Below are positions 27,103-50,532 of a stretch of 64,000 bases of DNA, in pieces; positions within the stretch are counted from its first letter, which is position 1; each line of letters opens with the position of its first letter. The notes beneath the pieces are model-generated. The model had not been told where the DNA came from. It saw only the letters and a program-made list of their open reading frames with translations, and searched no databases. The DNA lies in NCBI GenBank assembly GCA_016748015.1, contig JAAOMT010000760.1, positions 634,216 through 698,215 of the forward strand. The letters are read 5' to 3'. The stretch comes from Geosiphon pyriformis (Eukaryota; Glomeromycota; Glomeromycetes; Archaeosporales; Geosiphonaceae). The position numbers and the translations under genes are program-made.

Positions 27103-28147
27103 TTACTGCTTTTCATCAGCTGGAACCTGGGAATCAATTGGGGCAGATACGGGACCAGGACTAGTGGTATTCTCCAAAGGCGACGAATTGTTCATCACTG
27201 GAGTGCCATTGGCCATACCATTCAAAGTAGGATCAATACCATTTTCGATTTTCAAATTAGAATTTTCAGCTTCCTTTGCAATCCTTTCCTTTTCAGCATC
27301 AATCCATTTTTTTACGGCGTCAACACCAGTTTGACTCTTTGGTATACCTAATCTCCTGGCCATTCTTGAAACGGTGCTTTGATCCATCTTGATGCTATTT
27401 CCGGCGAATTGAGAAATTTCGGCACCAATTTTCCATTGTGGAATATTGGTACTTTCCACTCGCAAATTAAAATATTTTATAAATTCATCAAGTAAAGCCG
27501 CTTGTTCAGGTGTGAATGATGGTGGCTCCCGACGATTTGCTGTTGTGGGAGTAACAGTTGTCGGTGAGGTTTTAGCTGCCGGTGATGAACGAGAAGCTTT
27601 TTTTTTGTATTGATGATTATTAATTTCTGCATTTGGACTACCAGGTGGAGTATTAGTGCTAACAACGTTAGAAGTGGGTGTTGTCGGTGTTGGTGTTGTT
27701 GTTGTTGTTGTTGTTGTTGCTGCTGCTGCTAGGGCTGAAGGACGGGTTACTTTCGTGTAAGGAGTACTTCTATCGCGAGGTTTACCTTTTTGAGGTTTTC
27801 GAGTTTGTGTATTGGTAATATTTGATAATTGGGTATCGGGATCTGATGAAGTTGTTGTAGGCAAGAGAGTTTGCAGTTCTGGTGGCATCACAGCCTGCAA
27901 CTCGTCAATAGCTTTTGATGCAGAACGCATGGCTTGATGAGCTTGTTGAAAGGCTTTGTAAACCTTTGAATTGAGAAATTTTCGAAAGGGATAAATTTAA
28001 ATTAATATGGGGATGGGGCTTGGAATAAAAGAAAAAAATGATTTCTCTATATTAGAGAGAACTTTTTACCGCTTCGGTTTTCGCTTTCATGTTAGCGACA
28101 AGGTTAGGGTCAACTTCCATCTTTGCTTCATTTCCAGCTGATGACAT
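27103..28147 (-). CDS. POU-specific-like helix-turn-helix protein, family member 1
   Basis: Exon 1 is 28147-28070 and exon 2 is 27963-27103, with a 106-nt GTAAAA...AAAG intron in phase 0; 312 residues. The N-terminus (about 10-57) is helical and Ala/Leu-rich, with VYKAFQQAHQAMRSASKAID immediately after the intron. The middle is low complexity: basic patches, poly-Ala and poly-Thr from GCA/ACA microsatellites, and Pro/Ser/Thr. Residues about 178-254 form a compact helical domain. Against the animal POU-specific domain it aligns F..YF..R, then Q (PQWKIGAEI) in helix 2, FAGN, then DQSTVSRM in helix 3 and KKWIDAEKER at the end. The glutamines correspond to the two base-contacting Gln of POU_S. 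No homeodomain follows. A DNA-binding nuclear regulator is inferred. It is the most conserved-looking of four local paralogs. Confidence 0.8.
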
Positions 28148-28181
28148 TGTGAAGAGAACGGAATATTTCGATTACAATTTT

Positions 28182-28190
28182 CCTTTATAA
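28182..28190 (-). promoter_or_regulatory. TATA-like element
   Basis: GTTATAAAGG read on the minus strand, about 35-45 bp before the ATG at 28147. An AAT microsatellite lies just upstream (28190-28208). Confidence 0.4.
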
Positions 28191-28927
28191 CAATAATAAT
28201 AATAATAAGTTCGATGGCTTCTTTTTTCGACGGACGCTGTTCAACAGGCCTATTCCATCAAAAAATCAGCATAAATCATCAACCATTATAAGATTATTTA
28301 TTAATCCGATGTTCATTTTCGACGTGGGAAATTTTCCTAATAATATTATTGAAACAATATAATTGGGCAAACATTGAAACAAATGAAATGAGGCATACCA
28401 ATTTCTTCGTAAATCTCGTCGCTTGACAGAAAATTACGATTTCCCCTATTCTGATTCTTGCTTGCCTTTTGCTTCTCAAAAGCCTATTGTTTATGGAATG
28501 TTTTGAAGAAGGTTGGGGGGAGGGACGGGGCAAAAAAAAAAATTAGCGCTTGGATTGGATTCGACCTGTTATGTATTATTATTTCGATGATTGATTATTA
28601 TTGGGCTGGGGGTCGGCAACATCATGCAACATTTGAACTAACGAATGCACCACCTGCAGCTTTATGCAATGGAATACTCATCACATTCACGTATCACTGA
28701 TCTATAAAATCGTCACACAATATAAAAAAATTTGCATGAAAATCGGAAAAAGGATAAGAATTTAGAACGCCTAATGCAATACATGGTGGTGGTGATTATA
28801 ATTTCTTGTGCCAAGCCATCGATTCAATTATGATTCAAATATGTGTTAGCTTTTAATAATTATGCAAGCAGGCATATTTCATCCCTTTGACTCTTTCTTT
28901 GACATCGACACACTGATTTCTCAAGAG

Positions 28928-28947
28928 TGAACGCGCGCGCGCGTTCA
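28928..28947. other. Perfect CG-core palindrome, 20 bp
   Basis: TGAACGCGCGCGCGCGTTCA equals its own reverse complement. It has an alternating purine-pyrimidine core and seven CpG steps in a very A/T-rich genome. Confidence 0.9.
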
Positions 28948-30214
28948 GTCATCATGCAAGGTCACCGAGTAATGTTTGAACCCCGCTATTGATATATTGC
29001 GACAGACAATCACCAATCATTGCAACATGATTACGCAACTAATTTCATTTATCATCATCAAACGACATGTAATGATAACGACCATGATCATGGGATTATG
29101 CCATTTTCCCTCTCTTCCAAAAAAGTTTAATTGGAAGGAAGGGTGGGGGAGCGCCTAGCTTTGGTTGGTTGTTCTAATGGGTTGACATCACACGATGGAG
29201 AGAAAATGCGCGCGCTCACATTTCGCACTTGTGGGGCATGATCGCGTCGGGAAAACGATCCCATGAAAGAAAAATAATCAAATAATGTGTCATCATGATA
29301 GATTAGAAATCTTGATAAATTTCATTAAACCCAGTTAGAAAATGGTAAAAAAAAAAGCCCAAAACACAATAAAAATTTACGAAAAAGGGATAGCTTCAAT
29401 GAGGAACATTAACGATTCTCGAAGTTAAAATAATATTTTTTTTTTTTTTTAAATAATTAATTATAATTAATGCAAAATAACACTTTTTTCTGGGATATCA
29501 ACATGGATCGTAGCGATCACTTATGATTGTAGAGTGTGTGTGTGATAGAAACAGATATCACTAATTTGTCATTCGTCACCAAAATAGGATAAACATTTCT
29601 GATGATCTATGTTTGTTTGAACTTTAAGTGGCGTTATGATTTTAGAATTTTCCCGAAACATTATCACAAATTTCACGCGCCTTCAAAAGAAATGGGACAT
29701 TTCATTCAAAATGGATGTCTAGACTTTTTTTTAATTAGGATTATATTTGAATTTATTAGTTTTGCTATATTCGATTATATTTTTTGATTTAAAACGAAAT
29801 TATAAGCAAGTTATAATTATGATCATTGAAAATTTTTGAGAAATATTTATTTCAAGGTAAAATGAGCAGAAAAAAAAAAGTTTTTTTTTAAAAAATCCGT
29901 TCTTTTGCTAATACTTTAAACACACACCAAAACTGAATGATATAAACACATGTGAGCGAGATCTATATATATTAAAGGAAACAAGGGAAGCAGAATATAT
30001 CACAGCTGCTTATAGTAAGATTCGGGAAGCATTTATTTTTAAAGATGTTTCAAAGAACTTTTTTGAAAAATAAATATGTTTTAAAATTCAAAAATCATTG
30101 ATCAAAGCCTCAAAATTCGTTTCAGATTAAATAAAATTTATTAGCCTAAAACCTAGCAAACAAATAAAACTTGAACTAAAATTTTTTATAACTTGAATAT
30201 TTTCCCTCTTTAAC

Positions 30215-30251
30215 GGGGGGGGGGGTTGGGGTTGGGGGGGGGAGAGGAGGG
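30215..30251 (+). other. G-run cluster, potential G-quadruplex
   Basis: Eleven G, TT, four G, TT, nine G, then AGAGGAGGG on the plus strand. Four or more G-tracts with short loops are capable of G-quadruplex formation. No gene lies within 1.5 kb. Confidence 0.75.
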
Positions 30252-31140
30252 TATTTCAAAAGGATTTTATAATTTTGAACTTTTAGTCTTTTGATGTTAG
30301 GATTTAAAAGGAGTAATGAAATATTTTGGAAAAATTTCAAAAATCTAATAATTAATATAAAGTTTTTAAGTGAAATAAATAACGATCTTTAAGAAAATTT
30401 AACAAAAATAAGCAAATATTTATGGAAAATTTATTTTATTTTTTAAATAAAGTGAATTTAATTACGTTTTTATTACCAAAATTAATGATCCTTCTTTACG
30501 AAATTTTTAGGAATCAAAAAATAATGCGAGGAAATGTTTATGGCATAAGTATTCTTGCGATTTATTTAGTATTACTCGCATGAATAGATAATCAATCGTC
30601 CGAAACTCAACATAACAAATCCACGGTTTAAAAGTTGATGCTTACCATCAAATATACTAAAAATGCCCGATTTTGCAATAATGTTTGGATAAAAAATTAT
30701 GAAACATTAATAACAAAAGCCTCAAGATCAAAATATTTTTTTTAAAAAAACTACAGGTATATTGTCAAAATTTTTAAAATTTCATAATCATCATATATTA
30801 CTATGACATGTGATTTTTAGCTGACACGGAAATGGCTGATTAATTGTCTCATGAATTATTGATTAAGTAATAAAAATGATTGATGTGATTAGAATGATGT
30901 TATTTTTAATAAACTAGTACTCATTGTTTTTGGGTAACAGCTTTTTGAGAACTTTTTTTGGATTGGGAAAAAATCTCACGTGAATATGAAAGTTTTAGTT
31001 TCATTATTATTATTATTATTATTAAAATTATTATCATGTACATGTAGTATTTTGGCGAGTGAAGTTTTTTAAAAAAGTTCAAAAGAATCACTTTTTTTGT
31101 TAATTATGTATAAAATAGCTATATGTTTCTAATATTATTC

Positions 31141-31206
31141 TTATTTATATTTATATTTATATTTACATTTATATTTATATTTATATTTATATTTGTATTT
31201 ATATAT
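31141..31206. repeat. TTATAT hexamer tandem repeat
   Basis: About ten units of ttatat with two single-base variants (ttacat, ttgtat). A/T simple repeat. Confidence 0.85.
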
Positions 31207-31791
31207 AAAAGAAACCTTTTCTAATAGTAATTTAAAATACTTTGGAACCAAACCACTTTTTTAAGAAACCTGCCTCTTACGTATTTATCCTATTAATTGT
31301 GTAATGAAAATTTTTTCGAAATCTCTGTTAATTGAATATGTTAATCACAAGTTTTAATATTTTGTGTAAAAATCCAAAAAGTTAATATATCATTCCCATT
31401 AAAAAGATAAATTTCTTGTAAGTTTAATTTTCATATTTACCTATTAAAAATTATCTTTGGTTTTTTATATAAACTTTTTTTATTTCATTGAAATTATTTT
31501 CTTCTCAATTCAAAAGTATCCCAGAACCATTAACTTGGATGCATTTTAAAGTACATATAATTTCGAAAACTGACTATCTATAGTTTAAGGGTTAGGTAAA
31601 TTTCGGTTTTTTCATAATGAGAATTTATAGAAAGCAGAATTAAAGTAGCAGCCATAGGGATACGTAAAATGAAATTGATGGTATTCAGGAATACCATTGA
31701 AAATTAATGAATCATCTTGAACTAAAAGCTGGTTTCTCATTTATCAATTCTCTGTATAACCATTCAAGGTTTGATGAATTTTAAACTTCAT

Positions 31792-31798
31792 TATAAAG
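31792..31798 (+). promoter_or_regulatory. TATA-like element
   Basis: TATAAAG lies about 30 bp upstream of the ATG at 31830 and about 230 bp upstream of the ATG at 32026. It could drive either small frame. Confidence 0.35.
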
Positions 31799-31829
31799 TA
31801 TGCTAAAAATTTCCCATAATTACGCCAAA

Positions 31830-31985
31830 ATGGGAATGTTAATTTTAATTATAAACTTAATAATATTAAAAAAGTCGGTGCAAGGAACTCCAGAAAATTG
31901 GCTATATAGCGACAACAACGTTTTCTTCTTTTCTACCAATCTAGCTTTTTCAAAAGTCGAAAACCATTTGAGATTAAAATTCTAA
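31830..31985 (+). CDS. Candidate small secreted peptide, 51 aa
   Basis: The ATG at 31830 is in good context (AAAATGG). A typical hydrophobic signal-peptide core follows (MGMLILIINLIILKKSVQG), then TPENWLYSDNNV and a short basic end. No cysteines are present in the predicted mature part. The frame stops 40 bp before the cysteine-rich peptide gene at 32026, and one TATA-like element precedes both, so it may be an upstream frame on the same transcript or an independent peptide. No donor site joining the two was convincing. Family unknown. Confidence 0.35.
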   Translation: MGMLILIINLIILKKSVQGTPENWLYSDNNVFFFSTNLAFSKVENHLRLKF

Positions 31986-32025
31986 TCTATTCAATTCGTC
32001 TTCCTAATCATCTAATTCGTGAAAA

Positions 32026-32250
32026 ATGCCTCAATTTAATTTCATGTCTCATGCTATTTTTATCATGATCCTTGTCATCTTAATGAATGCTAATTGTTTC
32101 TCAGTCGTTGCACCAGTCTACGCGTCGAAGAACACTTTGGTAAAACGGTGCTGGTACTTTCCTCGAATGTTTGAGTACTGCGTTCCTTGTTGCCAACCTA
32201 CGGCTCTTTATGACTCCTGTAATGATTCCTCAGACGCCAACGAATGGTAG
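32026..32250 (+). CDS. Cysteine-rich secreted peptide precursor with dibasic site, 74 aa
   Basis: Architecture in order: a hydrophobic signal sequence (residues about 9-29, IFIMILVILMNANCFSVV), a short pro-segment, a dibasic LVKR site at 38-41, and a C-terminal 33-residue region starting with Cys42 and holding Cys42, 52, 55, 56 and 65 (CWYFPRMFEYCVPCC...). Kexin-type proteases cleave after KR, so a processed cysteine-rich peptide is predicted. An odd number of cysteines (five) after the cleavage site allows an intermolecular disulphide or one free thiol. Such precursors in plant-associated fungi can be small secreted effectors or signalling peptides, but function here is inference. The gene is intronless with a TAG stop at 32248. 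Confidence 0.55.
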   Translation: MPQFNFMSHAIFIMILVILMNANCFSVVAPVYASKNTLVKRCWYFPRMFEYCVPCCQPTALYDSCNDSSDANEW

Positions 32251-35065
32251 TAATGTAGGAAATGCTAAAGGCAAAAATAACGGTGATGATTTTGATAATT
32301 AAATATAGAAAATTTTATTTTATATTTTAAATAATACAAGTAAGATATATATCTGTAGATTAAAAATTTAAGAAATGTCTCATTGATAACAAAATTTCTT
32401 GAAAATTTTTTTTTAAATTTTCAGCTTGATTTCAAACCAATATTAATAATAATGAGCTAATTAAAAAATAATGTAAATCTAATATCGGTTGAAAAATAAG
32501 AGTTTTTAACCTTCGAAAATAATCCATTGCAAAAACATTTGAATTATTTTCTTCAATTTTTTTAAAATAATTAAAATTCAAAATTTATATTTTTCTCTTA
32601 TAAAAATATGATCATGTTTTCATACAAGATATTAAATCTTATAAATAATGTAAAAGATTTTGGAGAAGTTAAAGAAATTAAAATTTTGTAAGCATAATAA
32701 AAAGAACATGCAATTGTTGATTTAAATATTTTAATGAAACAGTGAAAAACTCTAATTTTAAAAGTAAATGAACTGAAAAAAGAAGATAAATTTATAATTT
32801 ATATTTGTTGATAATATTTCAATTCTGATTATCACATGGTTCAAAAGCACGATTAACTTCGGATTAAGGAGAAACCTCTGTAGATTTAAATCCGAAGCAT
32901 CATCAACTACGGCTTAAGGATTCCAAAACTGCTTTATCCACCAACTGCTTGAATATTGAGAGCATAGATACCTAGATTGCTCATGTTATAGAGCCAGAAA
33001 CTCCGATTGTTCAAAATAATAAGATTCATTAGAAAAATTATAAAATAGCCTGAAATTTGTTTGAAATTCTAAAACCATAAGATGATGACTTGCAAAAAAA
33101 TTCATCAATCAAATACGTGTACTTCTAATATTCCTTTTAGCTGTTTTTTATGCACTCTTATTCTTGCAAAAATTTAATTGATTTCTAAAGGACAAAAAAC
33201 ATGAACCACCTTCGAAATATACCACTTATTGGTATCTTAAAAACCCAAATTCAACGTTAAACTAACCACTTGGAAGAATACTATGCAACAAAGATCGCCT
33301 CAAGGTATTGACATTTATAAACTCGGTCAATTGACCGAGGCATCAAATTAAGCCTATTATTGTATGAGACATCAGTACCCTATTATAGGTTAAATTTTGA
33401 AAAGAATTTTAATTTGACAAAAATTATTCCAGTCCACACACTTTTTTTAACAAAATATTTTTTCAGAATTCCAGCAAAATTTGCTTAAAGCACGAAAAAT
33501 TTCGTCACTTTTGGAGGTAGCAAAATGATAATATTATAAAGCATTCCTTTTAAAAACACCTGGTTCTTTATTACTTTTAGGTCCATCCTTAGGCATCGAA
33601 AGAAAAAAATCATTCATTCACTGGATAGAGGACTGGTGGTGGTATGGTTTAAATCTCTTTCCCCTGAATAAATCATATTATTGAAAGTTATCAACATTTT
33701 AACAAATACTGCCCTCGATTTTATTTAAAAACAGTCGCAGTTATCGCCTACCTAGCAAACTAGAATCATACATAAAAAACCAAGACTTTGAAGTACGAGC
33801 GACCACATTTGGTGCTCCTCATTGATGTCGCTCGTTTGATTAACATATTTCAATGAGTATGTTCCTCATTTTCGAAGTTTTGATCCATCATATGGAGAAT
33901 TCTGCGACTGTCCAACTGATTTTCATATTTTGCAGTGTCCACGTATTGATTAGAAGAATAAAGGATCATGACAAATTGGAGTGTTCGATGAAACATTCTT
34001 CCCACGCGATGTAATCGTGGGGGAAACAGGTTTTTAAATTCTTTTAAATGTTTTTTATCTAATCAATTTTTTTTTAAAAACATCCTTTTAAGGACAATCA
34101 AATTACCAATATACCAGGGAAATTTGTCTAAATTAGGCCATTGTTGGCGATATCTCGGAATATGATTAATTTCGTCGAAATCTTTCCTTCATAAAAATTT
34201 GCTAATTAAATAAAAAATCCAAGGACCAACAACATTGAAAATTCTGTTACTGTTGAAAAAATCCTTTTTTTTGGGCATATCAATCTTTTAATACATTGGG
34301 ATCCTGAAACCGTCTCTTTGAAATGCTTTGAAAATAAATAATTTTTAGATATCTTGACCAAAGCAACAGCTAGCTCAAGAACTCTGAGAAATATCAATTA
34401 TCATGAGTCTGAACCATATAATAAACAAGTAAGACGAGTTTACAGCACAGCTCTCAAATAAGATCTACAATTATTATTATTATTATTATTGTAAGGATTT
34501 TGAATTCACCAAATTTTTCGAGTTCAATCACTCCATAGATTTCGACGTTTTAGCTGGATTGACATCCGCAAATGAATGAAATTGAGATTTGGGAGGAAAT
34601 AATTCGGATGGGATGCTTTGCTCTCCATAAAATCTTGAAAGTCTTCAGAATATTGATCCGTTTTTGCTGTTGATTTGCTTTTATGAGATTTTATTGGTCA
34701 ATTACTTTTACAGGTTATGCCCTACAAACAAATTTAAAAAAAGATTTGAAGAAAAGTCTAAAAACGTGTTATATAGTTTAAAAGGAATTCCGAACCAGTT
34801 CCAAATCGTAGCAGTGAACATAAAGGAACTGAAATTAATTTATTAATTTTTGCATATCTAATAGCCAACTGTTTGTTTTTTCACACAAAATGAATCATCA
34901 AATAATAAAAAAGTACATAAAAAGTTCACTTTTACTTTAACATTTATTTTGTTTGCAAAAAAAAGATTATTTTCTCAATAAAGGTGATTACATCTTTCAT
35001 TACAAGCTTTCTAATCATTTGATAATATATTCTTAAATTCTATATTTTAAATAAATTTTATACAT

Positions 35066-35104
<39 letters not shown>

Positions 35105-36545
35105 GCATAGGATTGATTTTATGATGAAAATTCATTAACAGATTTTTGCTCACAATATATAATAAATTTATTAGATCAAATTGAGAATCCAATATTATAT
35201 TTTAGGAACATCATTTTAGACTAACTAATTTATGATTTGTAAATGCGATAAACAATATAATTATCAAAATGTGAGAATTTTGTTTTGAAATTTGATTTAT
35301 CAGAATGCTTCTACAAATTTGATTGTCTGGTTATTATAATTTCGTTGCGACTATATTAGAGTAGAAACTATTGAATTTACAAAGATAATATCATCAGGAA
35401 CCTTATATTGTTTGTAAAGGCAAAAAAAGTTTAAAATTTATTTAGTAATCTAATTATAATTTTTTAATTTCCTTCCCATAAGTTTCATAATAACACTTCT
35501 TTTATGCAAACATTAACTCTATAATCAAAACTCAAAATTAAGTTTAAATTTCAAAGGTTGAGATATATCTCTTTTTCAGAATATAAATTCTTTAAAAACA
35601 CTGAATTTTTTTATAATTATGTATAATTAATGTTCTTTTTCCTTCTGTAATTTGCGGAGAAGAGGAAAAAAATTTCATTAAACAAATAAAAATTTTTAAT
35701 TTAAAAATCTGACGATTAAAAAATAACTGATAGCATCAATAATTAAAGTCTAACGAAAAGATTCGGATGGATTGCCTTAATTTTTTCATCTTTTGGACGT
35801 GGAAAGTGAGGCTAATAAGCTCGTTTTTTGAGGTGCAATCCTTTTAGGCTGCCTAAAAATGGAAAAATGAAGTTTTTTCTATCAAATCATCAATGACATT
35901 GGAATTGCCCTTGAAAACTTGGTGTTTCAGTCCTAAATACTTGATCGCTAAAAAAATATGTTCATTAGCTATTCAGTTGAAAATTTATACACAAAACTCC
36001 AAGATTAGACTCACTCATAACTTCCTAACTCCGTAATTAAATTATCATGACCTAAAATCGTCTGCTTCGGAATCTGACTTTATGAAATCACTCGATGAAA
36101 GTGAAATAGAATTTGAAACTAAACAAAAATAAAATTTCCTGATTTTTTAATATCAGTCTGAATACTTTGACCTCATTTAGATTTTGATAATACATTAATT
36201 GATTTTGTTCAAGCTCATCTTTTGCCATTTCTGCTTCAAAATATCCGAATAAAGAATTTGAAAATCTTCTAAAATGATTTCCGTCAGACCCTATAATAAA
36301 AAAAGTTTTTCTTAAACGTTCGGGGAAGAATTAAAGTAACTTAATTAAGTTAAAAGAACAATTCAAGAAATTAAAAAATATTTATTTATGCCTACTTAAA
36401 AGGAATTCCTTTATACTTTTGACCGTTTTTATTTTTGAGCAGATTCAATCGGCATTACTCGTGATACCTTCAAAGATTGGTCAAAGATCCAAGTATATTT
36501 TTACTGCTAGTTTCATTTCAGAATACTTAATATAACTCGTATTCT
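32251..36545. other. Gene-poor interval
   Basis: No gene supported. Simple repeats include TTA at 34471-34490 and AAT at 35069-35104. A 9-bp perfect inverted repeat acgagcgac/gtcgctcgt lies at 33795-33803 and 33827-33835, and another, cttcggatt/aatccgaag, at 32857-32865 and 32889-32897. Small frames at 34206-34397 (minus) and 34664-34846 (plus) lack supporting signals. Confidence 0.6.
35069..35104. repeat. AAT microsatellite
   Basis: About 12 uninterrupted AAT units. Similar shorter tracts occur at 31003-31024, 34471-34490, 55479-55504 and 16525-16547. Confidence 0.9.
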
Positions 36546-36812
36546 ATGAATAATATATTGGTATGGTTTTCAATACTTTTTATAACAACTTGGTTGACTT
36601 GTGACCAGACACATATCAATTTTAATCGCAAAAGGCGACCTTTTCATTTCAGGGTGAAAAGCTGGAAAAATGATCTAAAGACCCAATTGAGAGCGTGTAG
36701 TTTGCATTTATTTGCTACATATAGCTTTCCTTATTATAATTTATTTGCATTTTTAAGTCCAAATTGTACTCAAAAATTTTATTGGATTATATCCTTTGTT
36801 TTACAGTTTTAA
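36546..36812 (+). CDS. Weak candidate small secreted protein, 88 aa
   Basis: The frame begins with a signal-peptide-like segment (MNNILVWFSILFITTWLTC) followed by a basic stretch (NFNRKRRPFHFRVKSWKN) that includes a KRR site, then a hydrophobic C-terminal half. Three cysteines. No TATA or family evidence. It lies about 0.75 kb upstream of the POU-like gene at 37571. It may be spurious. Confidence 0.2.
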   Translation: MNNILVWFSILFITTWLTCDQTHINFNRKRRPFHFRVKSWKNDLKTQLRACSLHLFATYSFPYYNLFAFLSPNCTQKFYWIISFVLQF

Positions 36813-37246
36813 CTTAAGCCTATAGATCTTCATGTTCTATTTCAAATATAGATGTTTGCAAGTTAGAATATTGTGCTTAATACAAAAATCTTAGACTTTA
36901 ACCAAATTTTTGGCTTTCAAAATTCAGTTTTCAATTGAATTTGCAAATTTCTCTAATTTCTTAAAAATCTCGTGGTCTCAACTTTAAAACCACTTTTTTC
37001 CTTTCAAAATTCTTTTTACATATAATTTTAGTTTTTGATTAACAGACGTTTAGAATAGCAGATTTTTAGTTCCTCTCCCAGATGTCAATAAACAAAAAGT
37101 TCTTTTACCAACCACTTTGAATATAACAAAATTAAATCTATTTTTTTTGCATAGTTTTCTATCCTGACTTAAAAATAAGCATTTCAAATAAATTTAAAAC
37201 TGGAACAATTATTCTTTCTTTAAATTGTTTACGGTCAGAAATGATA

Positions 37247-37570: not shown

Positions 37571-38505
37571 ATGGATTTTAATACTAAACTTAAAGTGGTA
37601 TAAATTTTTAATGAACATTAATCCTCTGCCTATTGGATTTTCAAAATCAAAATTTGACAATTTGGTCCCCGAATATTTCAATAAAAAAGGTTCTAGATAC
37701 TCACGCTGAGGCACAAAAGGCTATGTCACGATTGACGGAAGCCGTAAATATCTTACAAAATTCACCTTCCATTAATAAGCTTCCGCCTGTAGCTGAAAAG
37801 GGAAACGATGAGAAAATCTTCGAGATGGTAGAATGTAAAATTGAAGGCACACAGGTTTCCTCAGCAATTTTATATCGAGAAAATGAGGTCGATTCAAGAC
37901 AAACTCTTGCCCAAAATGATGGTCAATTTTGTGCCGATGTAAACTTTAACCAGCTAGTTAAGGCTGATAACAGCACTACTCTAGGTACCAAATCTTCTGT
38001 CCACCATTTAAATTTGTGTCTGGAACCCAAGATACAGCTGATACCTGATATGGAGGCTAAAAAAGAGACTCCAGCTCCAATATCTTCAAAACGACATTCC
38101 AACTCATCAAAATTAATCACTGTTTCACATTCAGTACAAAGGGCTTATCGCACCAGAGAGAAAAGAAGAGCTTCATTAACGATGAATTATCATCATAAAT
38201 ATAATGATAGTAGTGGATCTGAAACTCGAAAAAGTCAAAGAACAAGAGATAATGGTCCTAAAGAAGCTTCAAATATTTTCGCTGATTTCAAAGAATGTCT
38301 GGAATATCGAAGAAAAGTTGGGACAGGAGTGCAGAAATTGATCGCAGCTGAGTTGACCCAATTGGGAAAGTCCTTTGGAATCGAATTCTCACAAACTGAT
38401 ATTTCCTCAATGGCACGAGGATTAGCTCCTGCACGCCACAAAATAGATTTAGTTAATGCTTGGATTGCGGCTGAGCAGGAAAAAAGGGCTAAAGAAGAAA
38501 TTTAG
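37571..38505 (+). CDS. POU-specific-like helix-turn-helix protein, family member 2
   Basis: Exon 2 (37690-38505, 271 residues) is secure. It starts VLDTHAEAQKAMSRLTEAVN at the same phase-0 intron position as the paralogs. Exon 1 (37571-37597, MDFNTKLKV) is inferred from its likeness to MEVDPNLV and MNFDPELM in the paralogs and from a GTATAA...AAAAAG intron of 92 nt; it is about eight residues shorter than theirs. The middle is Ser/Lys-rich with basic patches (RTREKRR, RKSQRTRD). The last 78 residues form the conserved domain. In it LEYRRK precedes a helix-2 Gln (TGVQKLIAAEL), and helix 3 reads FSQTDISSM, close to the animal POU_S FSQTT-I-SR element. The end is VNAWIAAEQEKR. A nuclear DNA-binding regulator is inferred. 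Confidence 0.75.
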
Positions 38506-39449: not shown

Positions 39450-40480
39450 ATGTCGGCTCAGGTGTCAACTTCAAGAGACTAGGTAAAGTCATATTGGAAC
39501 GGGTTACCTCAGAAGTTGTGGTTACCTATCTCTGTCGCTCTTCTCCTCCCTCCATAATGCAAAACTCGTGATCCCCTTCGACGAGTAAGAACTTTCCTTT
39601 CCAGCAGCATTGTTTTCAACTGCAGGATGCAAGAACAGCGAGTGACTAAATACAGAAAGAGCGCCAAGCAAGCAAAAAGCGCAAGACAAAAACCAGGAAA
39701 AGGCCAGCACGCAACAAGCGATTACTCTCGGGAGAAACTCTCAGCCGCAAGTTGTTGCTGAGGGTGTATCCCGACCACTCTCAGATGCAATTACTGAAAC
39801 AATGAAATTTGCCTTTAATACTATAGTGAAACAAAAGGCGTTATGTTGTGGTAAACAAGTAAATTACGGAAAAGACAAGGCTGAAGCCTATACATTTCAA
39901 GACATCTTTTTGGTGATGTCTCGGCTATCTGGGGTGAGTAAAATAGCTTCTGTGACATCAAACAAATTGTTCGTCTGTGCAAGTTATGGATGACCTTTTT
40001 GTTGGAAAATTGCTATCGTTACTTCAAAGCAAAAGCAGCCTTGAACATACAACAAAGGGTTGTGCATTTACAGATTGAAATTCATAATAAGATAATCGTA
40101 TTTTTCACTCTCAATTTTGAGGTTCCAGATATGGCGAGGAAAATTATGCACTTTAAAGGAAAAGAAAAAGATCGAAGCTAATTGCGAATATAGAAACAAA
40201 ACGTTCGAAAAATGCTCTACTGGGCATATTATCATTTCCATTAACATTCGATCGCCAAAGCTGAGGAGTTAGGAGGTTATGTTGTCATTCAAAATGAGGT
40301 TATACATCGAAGACTTATAGCTCGTGTGGTAACATAAAAAGCATCTGAAAGCCTGAAGTGTATAACTCCTGGTAATTGAGAGAAATAAAAATCGCCTTCA
40401 AGGGATCCTCCTCCGGGTAATACTTGATGGAGTCTTAATCTTACTGGAATACCTCTTAAAAAGAGTCAGCTATCACTTCA
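39450..40480 (+). pseudogene. Fanzor/TnpB-like RNA-guided nuclease relic, copy A
   Basis: Coding pieces occur in the family's order on the plus strand, in shifting frames. An ATG at 39450 opens a frame that stops after 10 codons. PQKLWLPISVA follows (about 39510-39540), then LLLRVYPDHSQMQLLKQ (about 39753-39803, stop TGA where the family has Trp). LSGVSKIAS (about 39925-39955) marks the segment after RuvC-I, then LQIEIHNKIIVFFTLNFEV and MARKI (about 40068-40145). KAEELGGYVVIQNE follows, with the RuvC-II-type Glu at 40296-40298, and then, one frame over, YTSKTYSSCG, a zinc-ribbon start with one Cys changed to Tyr. The end matches copy B (DGVLILLEYL-type). The IDPG motif is not readable. Deletions and stops make it non-functional. 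The region is GC-richer than its surroundings, suggesting a later arrival than the A/T blocks. Confidence 0.7.
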
Positions 40481-40966
40481 ATTTATTCCCATAAGTGGCA
40501 ATCTATTGGGTAAAGATGGGCTTGGGAATACTCTTATCGGGTCACAGATGTTCCCAAGCTGACCATCGTGTCAACAGCGCAGCATTTGAACCCTCATGTC
40601 AGCTTGTTTACTTTTAAAATTAATTTATTTTATACTATAACCACTAGTAAGAGCTGATATTTTGTTTCACACCAGGGAAAATAACTAACCGTAAAGGACT
40701 TTCTGTTTACAAAATGCCACGAATAACATCCTTGATATATAGTTCTTCAAGACTTATTGGATTTGCCTTTTTATATAGATTTTTTAAATTTTAATAATCT
40801 AAAACGCAAAAACCATTATTTTAATTGAAATTGAGAGAGCTTGCATTAATGATAACAATGTTTAATTATAAATTGGGAAAATATTCATCATCCAGTTTTT
40901 TGTACGCTTCGGTCTCAACCCATTTATTGACAGGTAAATTAAGGAAATGATGAAAGATGCAGTGGC
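40481..40966. other. Intergenic, nothing identified
   Basis: Between the Fanzor-like relic and the small minus-strand gene. No frames, repeats or signals of note. The 3' end of the relic could extend some way in. Confidence 0.5.
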
Positions 40967-41405
40967 TCAGTGATTGATAAAGCATTGGTTGAGCAAAATG
41001 AATTTATCAACGTAATGGACAGCAACAACAAGGTGCATCAACAGATCCTCTTTCTTTTCAATTTCGTAAGGTATTGAATCACATATAACAAATTCGTGCT
41101 CTGAATTTTCCCGAGTTACCTTAGAATCGTTTTTATGTATCTTGCAGCAATATATGCACATCAACACACGATAAAGAAATAAATTTTTTACGTTTTTACT
41201 TTTTAAATTGTTATACATCCTTTATTTCCAAGAATAAACATGTACTATGGCCTTTCCAATCCACACAAAATCACATATGATGGCAAGCTCACTTAGTATC
41301 ACAAAAGTAATGAGTGTATCTTACACAAATACACAGAGAGGCTATCGCATTTTTCACTTACGAATTTGATACTATTATCGTTCCTCCCTTTGAGGTATCG
41401 GACAT
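40967..41405 (-). CDS. Hypothetical small protein, two exons, 98 aa
   Basis: Exon 1 (41405-41362) reads MSDTSKGGTIIVSN and ends at a canonical GTAAGTG donor in phase 2. Exon 2 (41219-40967) begins after ATAAAG and restores the frame: MYNNLKSKNVKNLFLYRVL, then a Cys/Lys segment, then KVTRENSEHEFVICDSIPYE and a helical end (LLMHLVVAVHYVDKFILLNQ). The intron is 142 nt. A TATATATAC lies about 100 bp upstream on the minus strand (41506-41514). The same frame is open upstream to another ATG at 41480, but the TATA spacing favours 41405. I do not recognise the family. The matching phase, donor and TATA together argue for a real gene. The beginning of exon 2 is its least protein-like part, and a different acceptor is possible. 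Confidence 0.4.
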
Positions 41406-41505
41406 TGTGAACGTTTTCCTTTGAAAAAGAAGCCAATATGTTCTTTTTTGCAAGGTAGCACCTTCAGCAATGCGTCTCATGTTGTCCGTTCCTTAAATAA
41501 TCAAA

Positions 41506-41514
41506 GTATATATA
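41506..41514 (-). promoter_or_regulatory. TATA-box candidate
   Basis: TATATATAC on the minus strand, about 100 bp before the ATG at 41405 and about 26 bp before the alternative ATG at 41480. Confidence 0.4.
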
Positions 41515-41611
41515 GATCACTGTTAATATGCCTCTTAATCAATCCAGCAAATTGCGAATATAGCTAATGATTTACTTTGCATTTTTAAACAAAAGGCTTT
41601 TATAAATGATA

Positions 41612-43035
41612 TTAAATCATTGATTTTCGTGCCCATATCCGAAACACTTTGTAATAAGTTTTGTACAGATTGGTTTCTGTACGTATAGATTCAAGTTTTG
41701 CAAAATATTCTGTTGGGGAAATTCCCATAATGGATGGTAAAACAGCGATCAACCCTGATAATCCAAGGATTAGATCCTCAAGCATCTAAGGAAAATTTTT
41801 GTTACTAAAAATTAAGTTGCCCAGGTTGAAATAAAATTTATAAATAAAAGCGGCATTCTTACCAATTCCCCAATTTTCCCGGCCCAACTACCAAGATGGA
41901 TATCTTTAGTTTTTGAATGGAAATCATATAGATTATGACCAATTGATAGATATTTTTGAACGGATTCAGCACTATATTGACCAATTCCATTTCGCTTGAA
42001 GTATTGAAACACTGGAAAAACAAAAGTTTAAAGAATAAACCTCCATTGACATAAAAAAAAATGCATAGTGGGAGAGAGCATCGTCTACATACTTGCATCC
42101 CTGAATTCTGAAAGGATGGGCCCAGCATTGTAGATTTCAAATTTATGGTTATCTTTTCACAAAATATCGATTTAAAATAAATGAAGACAATATTATCTCA
42201 AAAAGGTCTATTACTTGATCTAATTTTTAGTTTTGCTTCCACGAACCTTCGATCTCAAACCACCCATTAGGTTTGATGACTCGAACTATCTCAGCCAATG
42301 CGGTTTGAGACCATTCTCGTTCTTTGATTGAATCGAAAAGAAAACGCTGATGCACAAAGTCAAATGTATCAGCTGGGAATGGGATTCCATGAAGTATATT
42401 TGATATTAGAAAATGGGCGTTTTCAGGTTTTCGATCTTTATCTGGGAATGTCGGACTTATGTCTATACCAATTGTTGATGATAATGGATATTTTTTGCTA
42501 TTATCCTATTTAAGAGAAATAAGAATATTAATAAAAATATTTTTATTAACTTGAAAATGTTCATCAATGAAAAGATGTTTTTTACCAGGACCCAAATACC
42601 AGTGCCAGTACTATGTTGAAAAATCATGTAAAAATGTATTAGCTATTTTTCCACCTGTAGAAACCACCATATCACTTACCCAATATCCAAAATTGCCGTC
42701 GAAATATTTTCCATTTTCTTTTGAATAGGTGCCGAAAATTTTCCACCCCATATAAGCTTCAAGAAATAATGCTGATTATATTTCCTTGCAGCCTCTATTT
42801 GATCATTCGGCGAACTCGTCACAATAGTCTCATCACCAGCCAGATATCGTCTCCCATTTACAAAAACAAATTGATCAAACGTATTTTCTTCTCGTGCTGC
42901 TTCTAATGGGTCAAGCGAAGAAGAGGTACTTAGAGAATCAATTGAACATGTTTCATAATTATCTGTGTTAAAAACGTTTACAAAGTTAGTTGGGGGCATT
43001 ATTGATCTGGTTGAGAAACTTTGTAAATTTTTCAT
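41612..43035 (-). CDS. SAM-dependent methyltransferase, six exons, 340 aa
   Basis: Exons 43035-42680, 42610-42586 (a 25-nt microexon), 42505-42247, 42152-42093, 42011-41863 and 41785-41612 keep a single frame to TAA. The class I Rossmann methyltransferase pattern is clear. N-terminal helices (RKYNQHYFLKLIWGG, KFSAPI) lead into motif I, LDIG-TGTGIWVL, split across introns 1 and 2, which binds S-adenosylmethionine. Next come GIDISPTFP (acidic residue after strand 2), PFPADTFDFVHQRF (motif II region) and LAEIVRVIKPNGWFEIE (motif III, typical KP-GGW-E). The C-terminal part (IYNAGPILSEFRDAMFQYFK and onward) is the helical lid of fungal family members. Length is normal and no inactivating change is seen; substrate unknown. 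Intron 3 uses a less usual GTTCGT donor. GTG at 43101 is in frame upstream, but ATG at 43035 is the first true start. Confidence 0.9.
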
Positions 43036-43780
43036 ACTCAAAATGAAAGTTATCTTTGGTTTATAGCAGAATTTTCTTTGGAGCTCTGTGATAAAAGTCA
43101 CGTTTCACGGGATTGTCCTTTGTTTCAATTTTCAGGGGTTTTTGTGTAGCTTCTTATCTGAAATTGGATTTTCAAAGCTTTGACCAGTTCAAATGGTTAT
43201 TCAAAAGAAACGTATTAAAATAAGGTTTTAAATAAAAATTTGAATTTGGGGTTGGGGTTGGGGTTGGGGTGGGAAATGAATTTTTATTTTTGTTTGGTTT
43301 CACAAATCCAAATTTTTGAATTTTAAATTACTTTGCGGAAATATTTACTAAAAAAGAGTTCCATTGTTGAATATCTTTTAGTGAGAAGGTAGAACAAAAT
43401 TTGTTCAAAAATAACGAGTTTTTCATGATTTACTATGCTTAATCAACCACTATCTACAGGTTACAACAACACACAAACCTGGATTATGCGCTTTCTACAC
43501 GTGATTAGCCACCTTTTTCGTGAATTCAGCTTTTAAGAAAAATGAGAATCCAAAAGTTTTCATAATAAATAAAAACTAAAATTAAAAACGATTGAATTTT
43601 AAAAATAAAACAATCCTTTCTAACTATCTAAAGCTACTAATCAAAGAGAAGAAAGCAATCGGGATTTTTGAGAGCGCAATAGTCTTTTTTTTTCTAAAAT
43701 AAATCTATTAAATTTAGAACATAATTCCTCGTGGTTTTATATATTAATAGTGCTATGACTACTTTTTTTTCATTAAAATA
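43036..43780. other. Upstream region of the methyltransferase
   Basis: Holds the GGGGTT array at 43248-43272, about 210 bp upstream of the predicted start. No other frame is supported. Confidence 0.5.
43248..43272 (+). repeat. Interstitial (GGGGTT)4 telomere-like array
   Basis: Four GGGG tracts separated by TT, followed by TGGG. It is identical to ciliate-type telomere units and unlike the TTAGGG expected of most fungi. Capable of G-quadruplex formation. It lies in the promoter-side flank of the methyltransferase gene, with the G-rich strand opposite the gene's coding strand. Confidence 0.85.
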
Positions 43781-46700
43781 TCAGCTTTTAGAAGAATAAA
43801 ATGATGAATATTATGTTGTTGTACCTTGTCATATTTTTAATTTAACAAAAGCTTAGATTATTGATTATTCAAACCTAAAAGTAAGTTATTTAATATTAGT
43901 TCTAGTAAAAATTATTATTGATTATAAAATAATTATAATTTATTTTTTTCAGCGTCGCAGTTTTTTCATTGATGTTAAATAGAAAGTTTTAAAATAAGTA
44001 TTTATGCCAATTGGATTTAAAATATTATTTACAAAATTATTATATTTAATAAACCACTTAATTTAAATAAAATAACTAATTAATTTTGGTTATATATTTA
44101 AGCAATTAACCAATTTATTATGTTTTTTATGGCATTATTTAACAAAACTAATGTTAAAGCTAATAATAACTTTATTTTTTTGGAAATTCAAGTACAGAAA
44201 ATAATTTTAATAATAAAACTTTTTGTAAAATTTGTTGGTTTTTTAATAAAAAGTATAAACTTCTTTTATGCTGGCTTTGTTGTTTTAAGTAAATTTTTTT
44301 TTCTATATATTAACTTAAATAATAGCCAAAAGTTTTGTAAATTTTAATGAAATTATTATAATAAAAAAGTTTATAAGATTCATAAAACCCAAAAAAATAT
44401 TAATAATACTGTATAATTTTAAATACTATTTTGGCATAATGTAGTTTTAATATAAGTTTAATAACTATTTATATATATAAATATTAATTGGACTAAACTT
44501 AGTTAAAGAATTTAAATAAATAAATATTTGTTTATTTACAATTTAAAAAAGTTTATACATGTTAAAAAAGATTAAGAATGTTATTTTTTAAAATAATTTT
44601 TTAATAAAATAAAAATAATAAAACTACAAAACAGAAATAATGTTTTAATTAAATCTAAAAAAAACATTTGATCAATAAAGTATAAATTTATTTTAACATA
44701 AAAGAGAAAATTTATTTTGACAAGTATTTTTTTAAAAAAAATAACAATTGATATTCGAATTTCAATTTTTTTCTTTGATAATTTTTTTATTTTATTGTCA
44801 TTAAAATCTTTAAAACCAATTGGCATATCAACTGTGCTAATTTTATGTTATTAATTTTTATTTTGCAATCATAAAAAGCTATTAAACTTCATCAACAAAA
44901 TTATTATGTTTTATTTTCACATTTTTGACATAAGAATGCAACAACATATTTATTTTTATAAAGAATAACAAAAAGACACATCTGTTCTGATTAAAAAGAA
45001 TTAACTAACAATTATTTTATGCTAATATTAATGACAAAAACCAAATGGATAGTTTCAATGTTTGTTTTTTGACTTTAAGTTTTTGCCTATTCTTTACATT
45101 GGTATTTAAACATGTATGTTTTTGAATATATTGGCAAACAAAATGTTTAAAAATTTACCTGTTTTTGTTTTAAGCTTAATTATCATATATTCTGACTTGT
45201 TTAAGTTGCATCAAGTTTAGGCCTGCATTCAAAAATAACCTATAATTTTGCTAATAAATGATGACATAGACAAATGAGAGATTTTGGGAGAGATTTGATC
45301 TCTAAAACAAAAGGATTTGGAAATAGATACATGTAGTCTCTGTGGAAGGATAAATTAGATTTGGGGAAAAAAGTCTTTACATCTGAAGAGTGTAAATAGA
45401 GATGTAAATGTTGCATGTAAAATTTTCTTTATTAATAAAAAGTTTTTTTGTGTCATTAAATATCAAGGACAGCCCCAATTCAAATGTTTAGAAAGTTAAT
45501 CTGTCAGCTTTTATGAAAACTTTAATACCTCGCTCAAAATTACTGTACTTTATTAAATTGTATCCCTGATTTTTTAAGAGGTTGTAACTCTCTAAAAGTA
45601 TGATATTTTAATTTAATCAAATTTCGATGGGTTTAAGGATGAAAAGAGTCAAACTGAAAGTTGAGCAACTTTTTTCAAAAGTTCAATTTAAAATTTTACT
45701 AAATACTTTAATTGTTATTATTTTAAAAATTTTCAGCAAACAAATGTTATTTTTTTGAAGGCTCTAATTCTTTTATTAGTCACTAAACTTATATTCTCAA
45801 AAAATTGAATTACGCTTATAAAAAGAAATATTTTCTTGGATAAAAATTAGTCAACTATTACTGTTCTCTTATATATAAAAAACTTATTTAATTCAACATT
45901 CAATCGGAAACTCTTTTAAACTCCTTTTTTAAAGCCACAATTATTCTTTTGGTTTCTCTGCTTGACTTGACATCAAAGAAAAGATGTGAAATTTTAAGAT
46001 TCTTGCCCAAGTATTATTATATTCAAGGATTAGTAATAAAGGATTTATGTTTTGATAATTTTGAAACATTTTTTTTCGACTTTAAAAATTCAATTTTGCT
46101 TTCTAATTATTTAATATACTTTTTAAATTTCATGAAAATAATAAAGATTAATAAGGATATTGATTTGTGAAATAATGAATCTTCATAAAAATCTAAATGA
46201 TATTTACAAGCTATTTAACAAATTCAAAGATTCTAAATACGATGTAGCCTCTGAAATACAAAAATTTCTAATAATCTATTTTCTAATTTATAAAAAAGTA
46301 TTAAAGCTTCTTTTAAATCGTTTTTTAAAATGAAAATGCTCAAATTTCTAATGCAAAATAAACTTTAAATAATTCAAAATTTTGTTTCGCTTAATATTGC
46401 TCTGGGATAAAGGGCCTGAAAACAAAAATCTTAATAGTATTTCGCACTTTATTAAATTTCGGACCTTGCGAATAAAAATGATGAAAGTAGTCCAAAATCA
46501 CATTTCTTGATTTTTTTAAACAAATAATCGTTTAAAATTTATTCAGGATTATTCATTCGGACCTGCACTTTAACTATTTCATTCTTTTTTAACCAATCAT
46601 TTGTCATCATCTAAATTGCTCACGCATCAGTGATTCAATTTGATAACGATACTTACCAAATCTCAAACCGAGCTATCTGCGTGTAAGAATCAATTAAAGT

Positions 46701-46950
46701 AAGGCTGACATCATCCCTTCAATATAAATTTTAATAAATAGGTAAAAAACTGTTTTAAAATAACCACTTGATTTTAAATTCTGTCACTCTTTCTTTGCTA
46801 TTTCAAACTTTTTTCATTCATTAATTTACTTAAAAACTTAAAAACTTAAAAATTTTCAATCAAAACTGAAAACTGAAAACTGATTTTTTTAATAAAATAA
46901 AGGTGAGAAATTCGCCCAATTTTTCAGATTATGATATGTAGATTTAATTA
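43781..46950. other. A/T block grading into upstream region of the gene at 47025
   Basis: 43781-46400 is an extreme A/T block with only compositional frames (44120-44347 plus, 44581-44826 minus, 45949-46170 plus). 46400-46950 is more balanced and is presumably the promoter region of the gene starting at 47025. A CAAAACTGAAAACTGAAAACTGA triple repeat lies at 46861-46883. Confidence 0.6.
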
Positions 46951-47024
46951 CATATTTCGTATTGTTTAATATAACCTTTTTTTCTTCAACAATTTATCTA
47001 CAAACTTTTTTTTTTGACTCCAAG

Positions 47025-48109
47025 ATGGAAAACGTACTTGTAAAAGATGGGCAAAATGTTGTTGAGTCGCAAGTAAATGGAGAAGTTGGTCAAATAATTC
47101 TTGATCAAAATACCGCTGAACAAGTGAGAGTTCAAATTCAAAAGGTAAAGATCATTTATAATAATATTACCTCATAAGATTATTGAATACATAAAGATAC
47201 CACTAAACTGTGTTTCATTATTAGGTTTACGACTCGCACGCTATGACGATGTTTCACGTAAAAAACTTGTCACGCTTGCTCTCTATTCCAGTAGTTATCA
47301 ATGAACACGTCTTGAATGGAGATGTACAGCTTAATGATGACGAAGGAATAAATTCTTTCAAACATGAATCAATTTCCAAGGATGAAGATAAATCATTTAG
47401 TTCAGCTGATTCGCGTGATAAAACCCAGCCCAATGCTCATGTTGCCGAAGAAGAACGGCCTAATTCACCTCCATTATCTTCAGCTAACGAAGAGCATTCC
47501 TCTTCAAGTTCCTTCGCCGCTGAGGAAGAAATAGAAGATGAAGAAACAATTGCAAAAGCTCTTCATCCAGAAAAGCATATCGCAACGCAAAAATCTCGTC
47601 GGGTCAAACGAAATAGTGAAGAGCAAAGAGACGACTTGATTGAGAATGAAGGACAACTTTCAAAAAAATCGAAAAGGGGAGGTGGTCCTGGTAATAATCG
47701 TCGAGGAGGAAGACCAAGGAAAAATATTTCTGTGGTTAGCTCAACATTGACAAGAAATACAGCAAATGGTAGTAACAGTGTTTCTCGACCTCAAATTCTT
47801 CGTCAACCGGAAACCCCTGAACACCAAAAGATGTTGGACGATTTTAGTCAATGTATGGAAAGACGTAGACAATTAGGAAACGCAGCCCAGAGAATGATTG
47901 CCGAGGAGATGACGAGTTTGGTTACTAACGATGTTGTAGTAATTTCCCAGAATGATGTTTCCATACTGAATCGAGGAGGTCTTACTGCTACCTTCAAATT
48001 CGATGCTATTAAAGCTTGGATTGCCTGGGAAAATTCAAAGATCAACACTGATGCAAATGAGCACCAAGAATCAAACACAAAAGGAGAGGCAGAACCTGAG
48101 CAGACATAA
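47025..48109 (+). CDS. POU-specific-like helix-turn-helix protein with AT-hook-like motif, family member 3
   Basis: Exon 1 is 47025-47144 and exon 2 is 47225-48109, with an 80-nt GTAAAG...TTAG intron in phase 0 at the family's conserved site; 334 residues. The N-terminus is longer than in the paralogs. The segment after the intron (VYDSHAMTMFHVKNLSRLL) keeps only a trace of the shared helix. An acidic Ser/Glu-rich region (about 70-150) is followed by KKSKRGGGPGNNRRGGRPRK, which contains a GRP core flanked by basic residues, like an AT-hook. Residues about 237-310 are the conserved domain: FSQCMERRRQ, helix-2 Gln in AAQRMIAEEM, helix 3 VISQNDVSIL and the end IKAWIAWENSK. Both glutamines of the POU_S alignment are kept. 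The Glu/Asn-rich tail lacks a homeodomain. A nuclear regulator binding A/T-rich DNA is inferred. Confidence 0.8.
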
Positions 48110-49435
48110 GAACAGTAACCCGATGAAATTGGTGTGCTGAAAAATACTTTGGAACTGGGTTTACAGATTTCAACTTGAGAAATTTTTACAATTTGCAGGT
48201 AGTCATTTTAAGAATTTTGTTTATTGTATAGAAATATGTTTGTCCTTAGAATAGAATTCCAGCAACTTTATGATCTTTTTGAGGAATGATCTCTCAACTT
48301 TTTCAAAGAGTTTGATCGGCGTGCAGAGAGCAAGCCACGAACAATTTATTATATCAATAACAATCCTCATCCGAAAATGAGCTTTTCAGAAGAGCCTTTT
48401 GCATTCAGCTAATAAGTATAATAGTTTAAGGAAAATTAGCTGCATTAAAAAGTCTATGTAATAAATTTAAATATGCTTTTTTTATTTTGATACTTGAATA
48501 TCACAAATTTAATTTAAAATTTCGTTTATAGCTAATTTGGACTATGAATATAAAAATTGAGTTTAACCTTAATTATTTGAAAATAAATAATTTTTTTTTT
48601 AAGAATCAAAATCTAATCAAAAATTATGTTAGTTTTACATATCAACTTACTTGTACTGAGCTTTAGTGAATATCAGATTATAAGTTATTTTTCCATAATT
48701 TAACAAATCAATGAAAAAAATAAATCCTCTAAATAAGTTATGAATTAAAAAATTGAACAAATATAGGTTACTAATCAAAGAGCTGTATTTAATACATGAA
48801 AAATTTTCAACATACAAGCGGTCAATATTATTAAAATTAATCAAGAAAATGAAGAGTGTCGTAAATTAATCTTTATAATTATATTTGGGTCAAGTAAACT
48901 GGTGAGATTTAAAATTATGTCAATAGACGTAGTTAGAAATTTTATTTAGTAAATTCACTATAAGATATTATAAAGGTGCGCTCTTCAAAACGTACACTTC
49001 GTGATTTTCTATCTAGGTTTAAAGAGCAGAAAACAATTAACATGTAATCCGTGATCAGCACAATCATAAATGTCCACATTTTGCCTTTGTATGACACATT
49101 CATAGGGATTTTATTTCAGCAGCAGAATTGTCTATGCTGATGACCGCCACCTTGCATTTACGACGATCTTTCTCTCCAAAGCTTTTTGCAAGCGTTATTT
49201 GTTGGCTCTAGAACTAATGTCACATCAATAGGAGTTACAAAAGCAGTGACAAAGCTTAATATCCATTGATTAACTTTTTTGCTTTGTTTGATTAATCTGA
49301 CCAACATAACTACAAAACAATAATAGAAATTTCTATTCATCTTTGGCTTTTAGTGGCATAAAAACACAAAAAAAAAAAAGGATTTTCAAAAAGTTTTATT
49401 GAAATTTTAAAGTTTACGGCGATCCAAATACCAAC
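48110..49435. other. Intergenic between two family members
   Basis: 48480-48900 is A/T rich. 48960-49340 has more balanced composition and, on the minus strand, protein-like pieces (for example MNRNFYYCFVVMLVRLIKQS, LVLEPTNNACKKLWRERSS, MNVSYKGKMWTFMIVLITDY) broken by stops. It may be a decayed element or gene of unknown kind. Not called as a gene. Confidence 0.5.
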
Positions 49436-50532
49436 ATGAATTTCGATCCTGAATTAATGGTCAAGATAAGTAGAAAAGCAGCTGAGGTAGCGCGAATCTC
49501 AAATTTTTAGTTCCGTCTCAATTATTTCTGAGCTCAAAGAAGGGGTAGATACGAATATTTACATAAATAATTAATATTGAAAAGATCAGTGAAGCCTATC
49601 TAGAAGCTAATCGAGCGATGCTAAAAGCCTCTAGCGCCCTCGAGGAACTTCATGGAATGCTACCAGCTGAAATGGCAATACTTCTCCCAGAGTATCCAAA
49701 GCCCGATGATATGTTAAAATTATGCCAATCAAAAACAAGACTTTTTCATAAAATTGGAGAAATCGAAGATCCGGCAGAAAAAATTCTTCAGAATCCGATA
49801 ATTGACCAAGCAAGAGTTTCTGAAGATTCAAGGCTATCATTTGAGCCGGTTAGAGCGGTAGAAATTCCAGTCATTGAATTATTGGAATCTTCCCAAGAAC
49901 AAAAAAACTCTGTAGAAAGCTCAGCCTTTGAACGATCACAACCTTCCCAAGAGGGAAATAGGCTGGTAAAAAAACCGGCATTCAAGAAATCAAGTTTGAA
50001 TAATTTATTGCCCGTAGAAACAAAATTTTACCAAGAAATTATCTTCCCGGTTAAAACTAAGGTTGCCGAGGAGCGAAAAAAGCCATCGACTGAAATAAAA
50101 ACTTGGCAGCCGATAACTTTTAGACCAAAAATACAAGAGCTTGGCACAATATATACTCTCAAAGTTGCTGCGCACGAACATGTACGGAAACGCACCAGTG
50201 AAACCACAAATGACAAAAAGAATCCAATGAAAAAACCCAAGCAAATTCCAGAATTCACGCTTCAACAAAATTGCCTGCTCGATCAATTTGGAAAGTATTA
50301 TAAATTGCGGACATCTGACCCCAAGGTGACCGATTACGAAATTGCTGAGGAAATTACCTCATTTGGAGAAAATGTTGTCTCTATGGATCCTGGACTGGTT
50401 CAACGAATGATTCAACGATATAAGATTGCAAAAAATCCAGTGTTGCTACAGGCTCTTTGGCGATGGATTGATCGAGAAGCTGAGAGGAATGGGGACGAAC
50501 GAGTGGATTTCAAATCATTGATCTATTTGTAA
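49436..50532 (+). CDS. POU-specific-like family member 4, contact residues lost
   Basis: Exon 1 is 49436-49486 (MNFDPELMVKISRKAAE) and exon 2 is 49585-50532, with a 98-nt GTAGCG...AAAG intron in phase 0; 332 residues. The post-intron helix, ISEAYLEANRAMLKASSALE followed by LHGMLPAEMAILLP, is close to that of member 1 (27103-28147). The linker is Lys/Glu/Ser-rich without homopolymers and carries a basic cluster (KKNPMKKPKQ). The domain (about 239-318) has LLDQFGKYYKLR and the end ALWRWIDREAER. At the two positions where members 1-3 have Gln it has Asp (KVTDYEIAEEI) and Pro (MDPGLVQRM). If the domain binds DNA as POU_S does, this copy should have altered or no base recognition. It lies 1.3 kb from member 3 in the same orientation. 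Confidence 0.8.

Follow-up and report, generated by a model that had tools for sequence, protein, structure and literature searches.

A gene family with a predicted POU_S-like C-terminal domain, expanded in the genome of Geosiphon pyriformis

In POU transcription factors, one Gln in helix 2 and another at the start of helix 3 contact DNA; HNF1, which has a POU_S-like domain, also has a homeodomain. An excerpt of PMC4245813 reports POU genes recovered from Metazoa only and describes the POU-specific domain (POU_S) as an animal novelty that was added onto an older homeodomain gene. The window studied here is a stretch of 64,000 nucleotides from the fungus Geosiphon pyriformis (GCA_016748015.1, contig JAAOMT010000760.1, positions 634,216–698,215). 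It holds four genes that share a C-terminal domain of about 75 residues, which we read, with a probability of about 0.7 and in part from predicted structures, as belonging to an expanded family of at least 24 sequence-specific DNA-binding regulators with a POU_S-like C-terminal domain. A first-pass annotation of the window had taken POU genes to be animal-specific. This premise needs a qualifier, since PMC5415576 counts both the POU-specific (IPR000327) and the lambda repressor-like domain among the domains that transcription factors of fungi typically have, and reports factors combining a homeodomain with a lambda-repressor-like domain from 7 of 191 fungal genomes, most of these zygomycetes. 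It was the one paper on POU or lambda-repressor-like factors of fungi that the literature searches brought up. Factors of the lambda-like kind are therefore nothing new in fungi as such. For a stand-alone, expanded POU_S-like family without a Pfam assignment we found no description in the literature searched, although one may exist.

Four window genes and their relatives

The genes at 27103–28147, 37571–38505, 47025–48109, and 49436–50532 are called genes 1 to 4 here, and all belong to subfamily A (see below). Their positions agree between the first-pass annotation and the open reading frame (ORF) listing of the window. Reading of the 5′ regions gives each of them two exons: a short exon 1, an intron ending in AG, and a long exon 2. 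The implied start codons (28147, 37571, 47025, and 49436) are compatible with such a short first exon and with an AG-ending intron in front of an N-terminal motif.

27103–28147, minus strand: gene 1; exon 1 28070–28147 (26 codons), intron 27964–28069, exon 2 27103–27963, from the ORF and the splice sites read
27859–27963, minus strand: gene 1 N-terminal motif, 35 codons, helix-like by pattern
27265–27528, minus strand: gene 1 C-terminal POU_S-like domain (predicted), both Gln present
37571–38505, plus strand: gene 2; exon 1 37571–37594 or 37571–37597 (8 or 9 codons, donor ambiguous), exon 2 37690–38505
38245–38502, plus strand: gene 2 C-terminal POU_S-like domain (predicted), both Gln present
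47025–48109, plus strand: gene 3; exon 1 47025–47144 (40 codons), exon 2 47225–48109; N-terminal motif degenerate
47798–48058, plus strand: gene 3 C-terminal POU_S-like domain (putative), both Gln present; sister of the gene 2 domain (support 100/97)
49436–50532, plus strand: gene 4; exon 1 49436–49486 (17 codons), exon 2 49585–50532
49585–49689, plus strand: gene 4 N-terminal motif, 35 codons, helix-like by pattern
50245–50505, plus strand: gene 4 C-terminal domain, without either contact-position Gln

The stop-to-stop frames of the four genes span 294–321 codons, with GC content differing by codon position. That they share a domain beyond chance, as first proposed, is borne out by direct protein searches within two pairs (E 1.2e-12 for gene 4 against gene 1, 1.8e-10 for gene 2 against gene 3). 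Across the pairs, gene 1 matches genes 3 and 2 at E 0.03–0.07 only, and gene 4 as query matched neither at E ≤10⁰ (that is, ≤1). An iterated profile unites all four at 8.6e-20 to 2.6e-31, values that are not independent because the profile was made from the same four genes. No fifth member was found within the window, the next-best ORF (46373–46507, E 0.056) being judged noise.

The annotation had proposed a local family of four, which proved far too few. The organism's own genome (406 contigs, 124.7 Mb) was searched at the protein level, with queries from the four window genes and from three further members, the last of which added no new sequence. Spread over 17 contigs, at least 24 members keep an open frame for the domain, and one further copy is decayed; these counts are lower bounds. 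The 24 comprise 21 distinct domain sequences and three more (the third copy on C282 and those on C204 and C2). The decayed copy (L068–L071, C262:26599–28104) consists of pieces 60–84% identical to the C178 member with internal stops, and the family therefore also loses genes. One member, on C368 (L012:937–3126), has 729 codons and carries the domain mid-protein (residues 464–538) instead of at the C-terminus. The SSU rRNA on C320 (L079, RF01960, 1309.1 bits) contains, with one mismatch, the site of AML2, a primer linked with arbuscular mycorrhizal fungi; together with genome size and low GC content, this suggests a Glomeromycotina-like fungus.

Alignment of the 21 domains revealed one invariant Glu and one invariant Trp (21/21), with one Arg and one Ala nearly invariant. 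In the tree, 11 members form subfamily B with support 100/100, genes 2 and 3 are sisters (100/97), and genes 1 and 4 are placed elsewhere; tandem duplication alone was rejected on these positions. Three POU_S sequences in the tree fell inside subfamily A beside gene 1 (87/74), a placement given no weight because 14 of the tree's 24 inner branches are open and the POU_S branch is 2.63 long. An origin from prokaryotes or viruses was dropped after the gene 1 domain, the sole domain tried, gave no tblastn relative in genome_contigs or viral_contigs. PHROG matches of the four window domains were weak: the best was that of the gene 4 domain (50245–50505, plus strand) to phrog_25147, of unknown function (E 5.7e-4 across 23 residues), and the rest lay at 0.08–0.34, two of these being named transcriptional regulator.

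A second conserved part, absent from the first-pass annotation, is the N-terminal motif that follows the conserved intron. It was located in 20 of the 24 members and not in those on C368 and C178 or in either C327 member. An AG immediately precedes it in 19 of the 20 cases, and the twentieth (C259) is cut off by the locus end, leaving 19/19 readable; the count is not blind, because motif starts were placed by eye and by frame openings (donors were read in the window genes only). The motif of subfamily A is roughly V-x-x-A-Y-x-x-A-x-x-A-M/L … E-L-x-x-x-L-P-x-x-M-x-x-x-L-P, and that of subfamily B roughly A-x-x-I/V-x-x-G-F-x-x-F/L-x-x-A-I. The two N-terminal profiles, built from 10 and 8 sequences, can be aligned over 28 columns starting at the first, but with a probability of 5.4.

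As the annotation stated, the four window ORFs lack a homeodomain in Pfam, and none was found in the 18 member ORFs scanned whole. The genome has ten PF00046 matches on nine contigs, of which only C259 also carries a family member, more than 270 kb away. No homeodomain match lies within 270 kb of any member, and the family genes therefore fall short of full POU genes.

Fold and profile comparisons of the C-terminal domain

Structures were predicted for the domains of genes 1 and 2. The best of five gene 1 models (27238–27525) has a predicted local distance difference test (pLDDT) score of 88.5, three of the five lying at 53.9–59.8, and has four helices (6–26, 30–40, 49–56, and 65–94). For gene 2 (38245–38502) the best model reaches 84.4 among five at 79.7–84.4, also with four helices (6–25, 30–40, 50–57, and 64–85). 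Foldseek places a POU entry at rank 1 for both (E 0.14 and 0.13), and ranks 1–31 are all POU for the gene 2 model. By Z score, PDB ranks 1–18 of the gene 1 model (7.7–6.5) and ranks 1–30 of the gene 2 model (9.2–6.8, next row 6.5) are all POU_S or HNF1, with HNF1 reaching 7.5 and 8.3, respectively; lambda-repressor-like bacterial and phage proteins rank behind them for both models. The POU_S/lambda-repressor-like fold first suggested for the domain thus holds by prediction in two of the four window domains, as does a helical bundle with a helix-turn-helix at helices 2–3; the comparison with PDB brought POU_S/HNF1 to the top.

Sequence searches were less specific. PF00157 (POU_S) has no match in the genome. 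Among the long ORFs, those of genes 1, 2, and 4 have no Pfam match and that of gene 3 has one irrelevant weak match; the 18 members scanned whole matched no DNA-binding family. The 21 isolated domains gave CUT in three (best 0.055), Arg_repressor in two (best 0.025), and HTH_IclR in one (0.26); no family scored below an E of 0.002, which Gly_radical reached in one member. NCBIfam returned weak irrelevant matches only for the four window genes. A further search with the gene 1 long ORF gave one weak match, which lies within the linker. Searching PDB sequences with the window-four profile gave 12 sequences at E ≤10, 10 of them POU (best POU6F1, E 0.078); the 12- and 21-member profiles gave three and one, none POU, and the single domains of genes 2 and 3 returned chitinase-3-like, TFD-EE-type, and kinetochore entries and no POU. 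Pfam, NCBIfam, and PDB sequence searches made no significant assignment of the domain, nor did they place it confidently in a family other than the one proposed.

Profile–profile comparison used small four-sequence sets of POU_S, CUT, and HTH_3 as targets, so that its values carry no database correction. Four family profiles were compared, made from 21 members, 12 members, 10 members (genes 2 and 3 left out), and the window four. In this order, POU_S scores 33.4, 32.7, 28.4, and 32.1 over 65, 65, 69, and 63 columns (probability 89, 85, 67, and 81). CUT scores 23.3, 27.9, 28.0, and 23.9 over 15, 16, 17, and 19 columns, and HTH_3 scores 12.7, 17.5, 16.5, and 13.9 (probability ≤5.4). Reversed sets stay at or below a probability of 0.93 in 18/18 comparisons. 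Column shuffles of each target never reach the real POU_S score (0/200 for all four profiles, top shuffle 17.4) or that of CUT (0/200 in each), and reach that of HTH_3 in 7, 0, 2, and 3 of 200. The comparison favours POU_S over CUT and HTH_3 in aligned length and mostly in score; with the 10-member profile the preference rests on length, because the probabilities are equal (POU_S 67.1, CUT 67.0). Subfamily B on its own, represented by seven of its 11 members, gives no POU_S signal, with 21 (POU_S), 8 (CUT), and 61 (HTH_3) of 200 shuffles equalling or exceeding the real value, and genes 2 and 3 alone give a POU_S probability of 3.0.

The residue signature in the annotation stands in part. Of its positions, F1, R8, I19, the hydrophobic residue at 26, and the closing W-I occur in all four window domains; F/Y5 occurs in two, Gln16 and the helix-3 Gln in three each, and a Gly at the column tested for position 28 in one. 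In gene 4, Asp and Pro replace the two Gln. Across the 21 domains, the helix-2 Gln is found in 12 and the helix-3 Gln in 11. The 12 alignment rows of subfamily A retain the helix-3 Gln, Ser, and Arg in 11 each, while subfamily B lacks the Gln pair save for one helix-2 Gln. The extra loop residues also reported were recovered: from Gln to Gln there are 19 residues in gene 1 and 20 in genes 2 and 3, compared with 17 in POU_S and, to the equivalent residue, 12 in CUT and 11 in HTH_3.

Among described domains, POU_S (PF00157) resembles the family domain in the predicted arrangement of four helices, in supplying the best structural matches, in a profile alignment that spans the domain, in the long helix 2–3 stretch, and in the closing Trp, and in subfamily A also in both Gln (11 of 12 rows). 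The family differs from it in having no homeodomain found and no PF00157 match, a loop two to three residues longer, a domain at or near the C-terminus (except on C368), and an N-terminal motif of its own, and in the missing Gln pair of subfamily B and gene 4. HNF1 ranks with POU_S by Z score but was not hit when PDB sequences were searched with the family profiles. CUT (PF02376) shares a helix 3 of the type Q-G-T/S-I/V-S and beats all shuffles, with weak Pfam matches in three of 21 domains; none of these passes the cut-off, and the alignment covers 15–19 columns instead of the whole domain. XRE/HTH_3 proteins and phage repressors have a short helix 2–3 turn, and HTH_3 has no Pfam match in the 21 domains, although its 12-member value is unreached by 200 shuffles.

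Neighbouring features of the window

Between the family genes lies a methyltransferase-like stretch (42230–43104, minus strand; Methyltransf_11, E 1.8e-9 for 42230–42505), whose upstream ORF (42679–43104, minus strand) has no Pfam match and may be a first exon. A short TTGGGG array (4.2 copies) occupies 43246–43270, and a Sel1-repeat stretch is found at 53838–54260 (minus strand; Pfam E 9.1e-5, under the curated cut-off). Close to opposite window ends are two genes for secreted-looking, Cys-containing proteins, 2094–3209 (minus strand) and 61495–62587 (plus strand), which are weakly similar (BLASTP E 0.012, 2562–3209 against 61495–62079) and matched no Pfam family in the four pieces scanned.

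DNA binding and descent

If the four genes encode regulators, their C-terminal domain would adopt a POU_S-like form of the lambda-repressor fold with four helices. Its helix-turn-helix would consist of helices 2 and 3, with helix 3 (in subfamily A, x-Q-x-x-I/V-S-x-x-x-R) inserted into the major groove. The N-terminal motif would likely be a helix through which the protein associates with itself or with partners, joined to the domain by a long, polar, presumably disordered linker, and the proteins would act in the nucleus on transcription. The supposed contacts are not family-wide, because gene 4 lacks both Gln and subfamily B has no more than one helix-2 Gln; if helix 3 binds DNA, these proteins must read DNA differently or not bind. 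The same absence speaks for a protein-interaction or structural bundle without DNA binding, which we consider improbable given that subfamily A keeps the helix-3 Gln, Ser, and Arg so consistently and that the fold matches listed are mostly DNA-binding proteins. That the four genes are chance look-alikes or dead is hardly credible: one relative, on C262, has decayed, but the long frames with codon-position GC differences, the conserved acceptor, and the invariant Glu and Trp argue otherwise, and chance likeness was dropped on the direct protein searches, the acceptor, and the invariant residues.

A DNA-binding role is compatible with more than one history. The domain may resemble POU_S by convergence and belong to a branch, within fungi, of the lambda-repressor-like fold in general, closer to CUT, MBF1, or XRE/HTH_3. 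We give this an even chance, weighing against it that the whole domain aligns with POU_S only (63–69 columns, compared with 15–19 for CUT) and that the long helix 2–3 stretch resembles POU_S, not CUT or HTH_3. Common descent with animal POU_S is a more doubtful proposal: a homeodomain-free POU_S would have existed in the ancestor of fungi and animals, been joined to a homeodomain in animals, and expanded separately to some two dozen genes in this fungal lineage.

For the fungus, the reading of the four genes as DNA-binding regulators would mean an expanded family of probable regulators, without Pfam assignment, in its genome. A fungal stand-alone POU_S-like family would, if true, be a candidate outgroup with which the origin of POU_S becomes testable.

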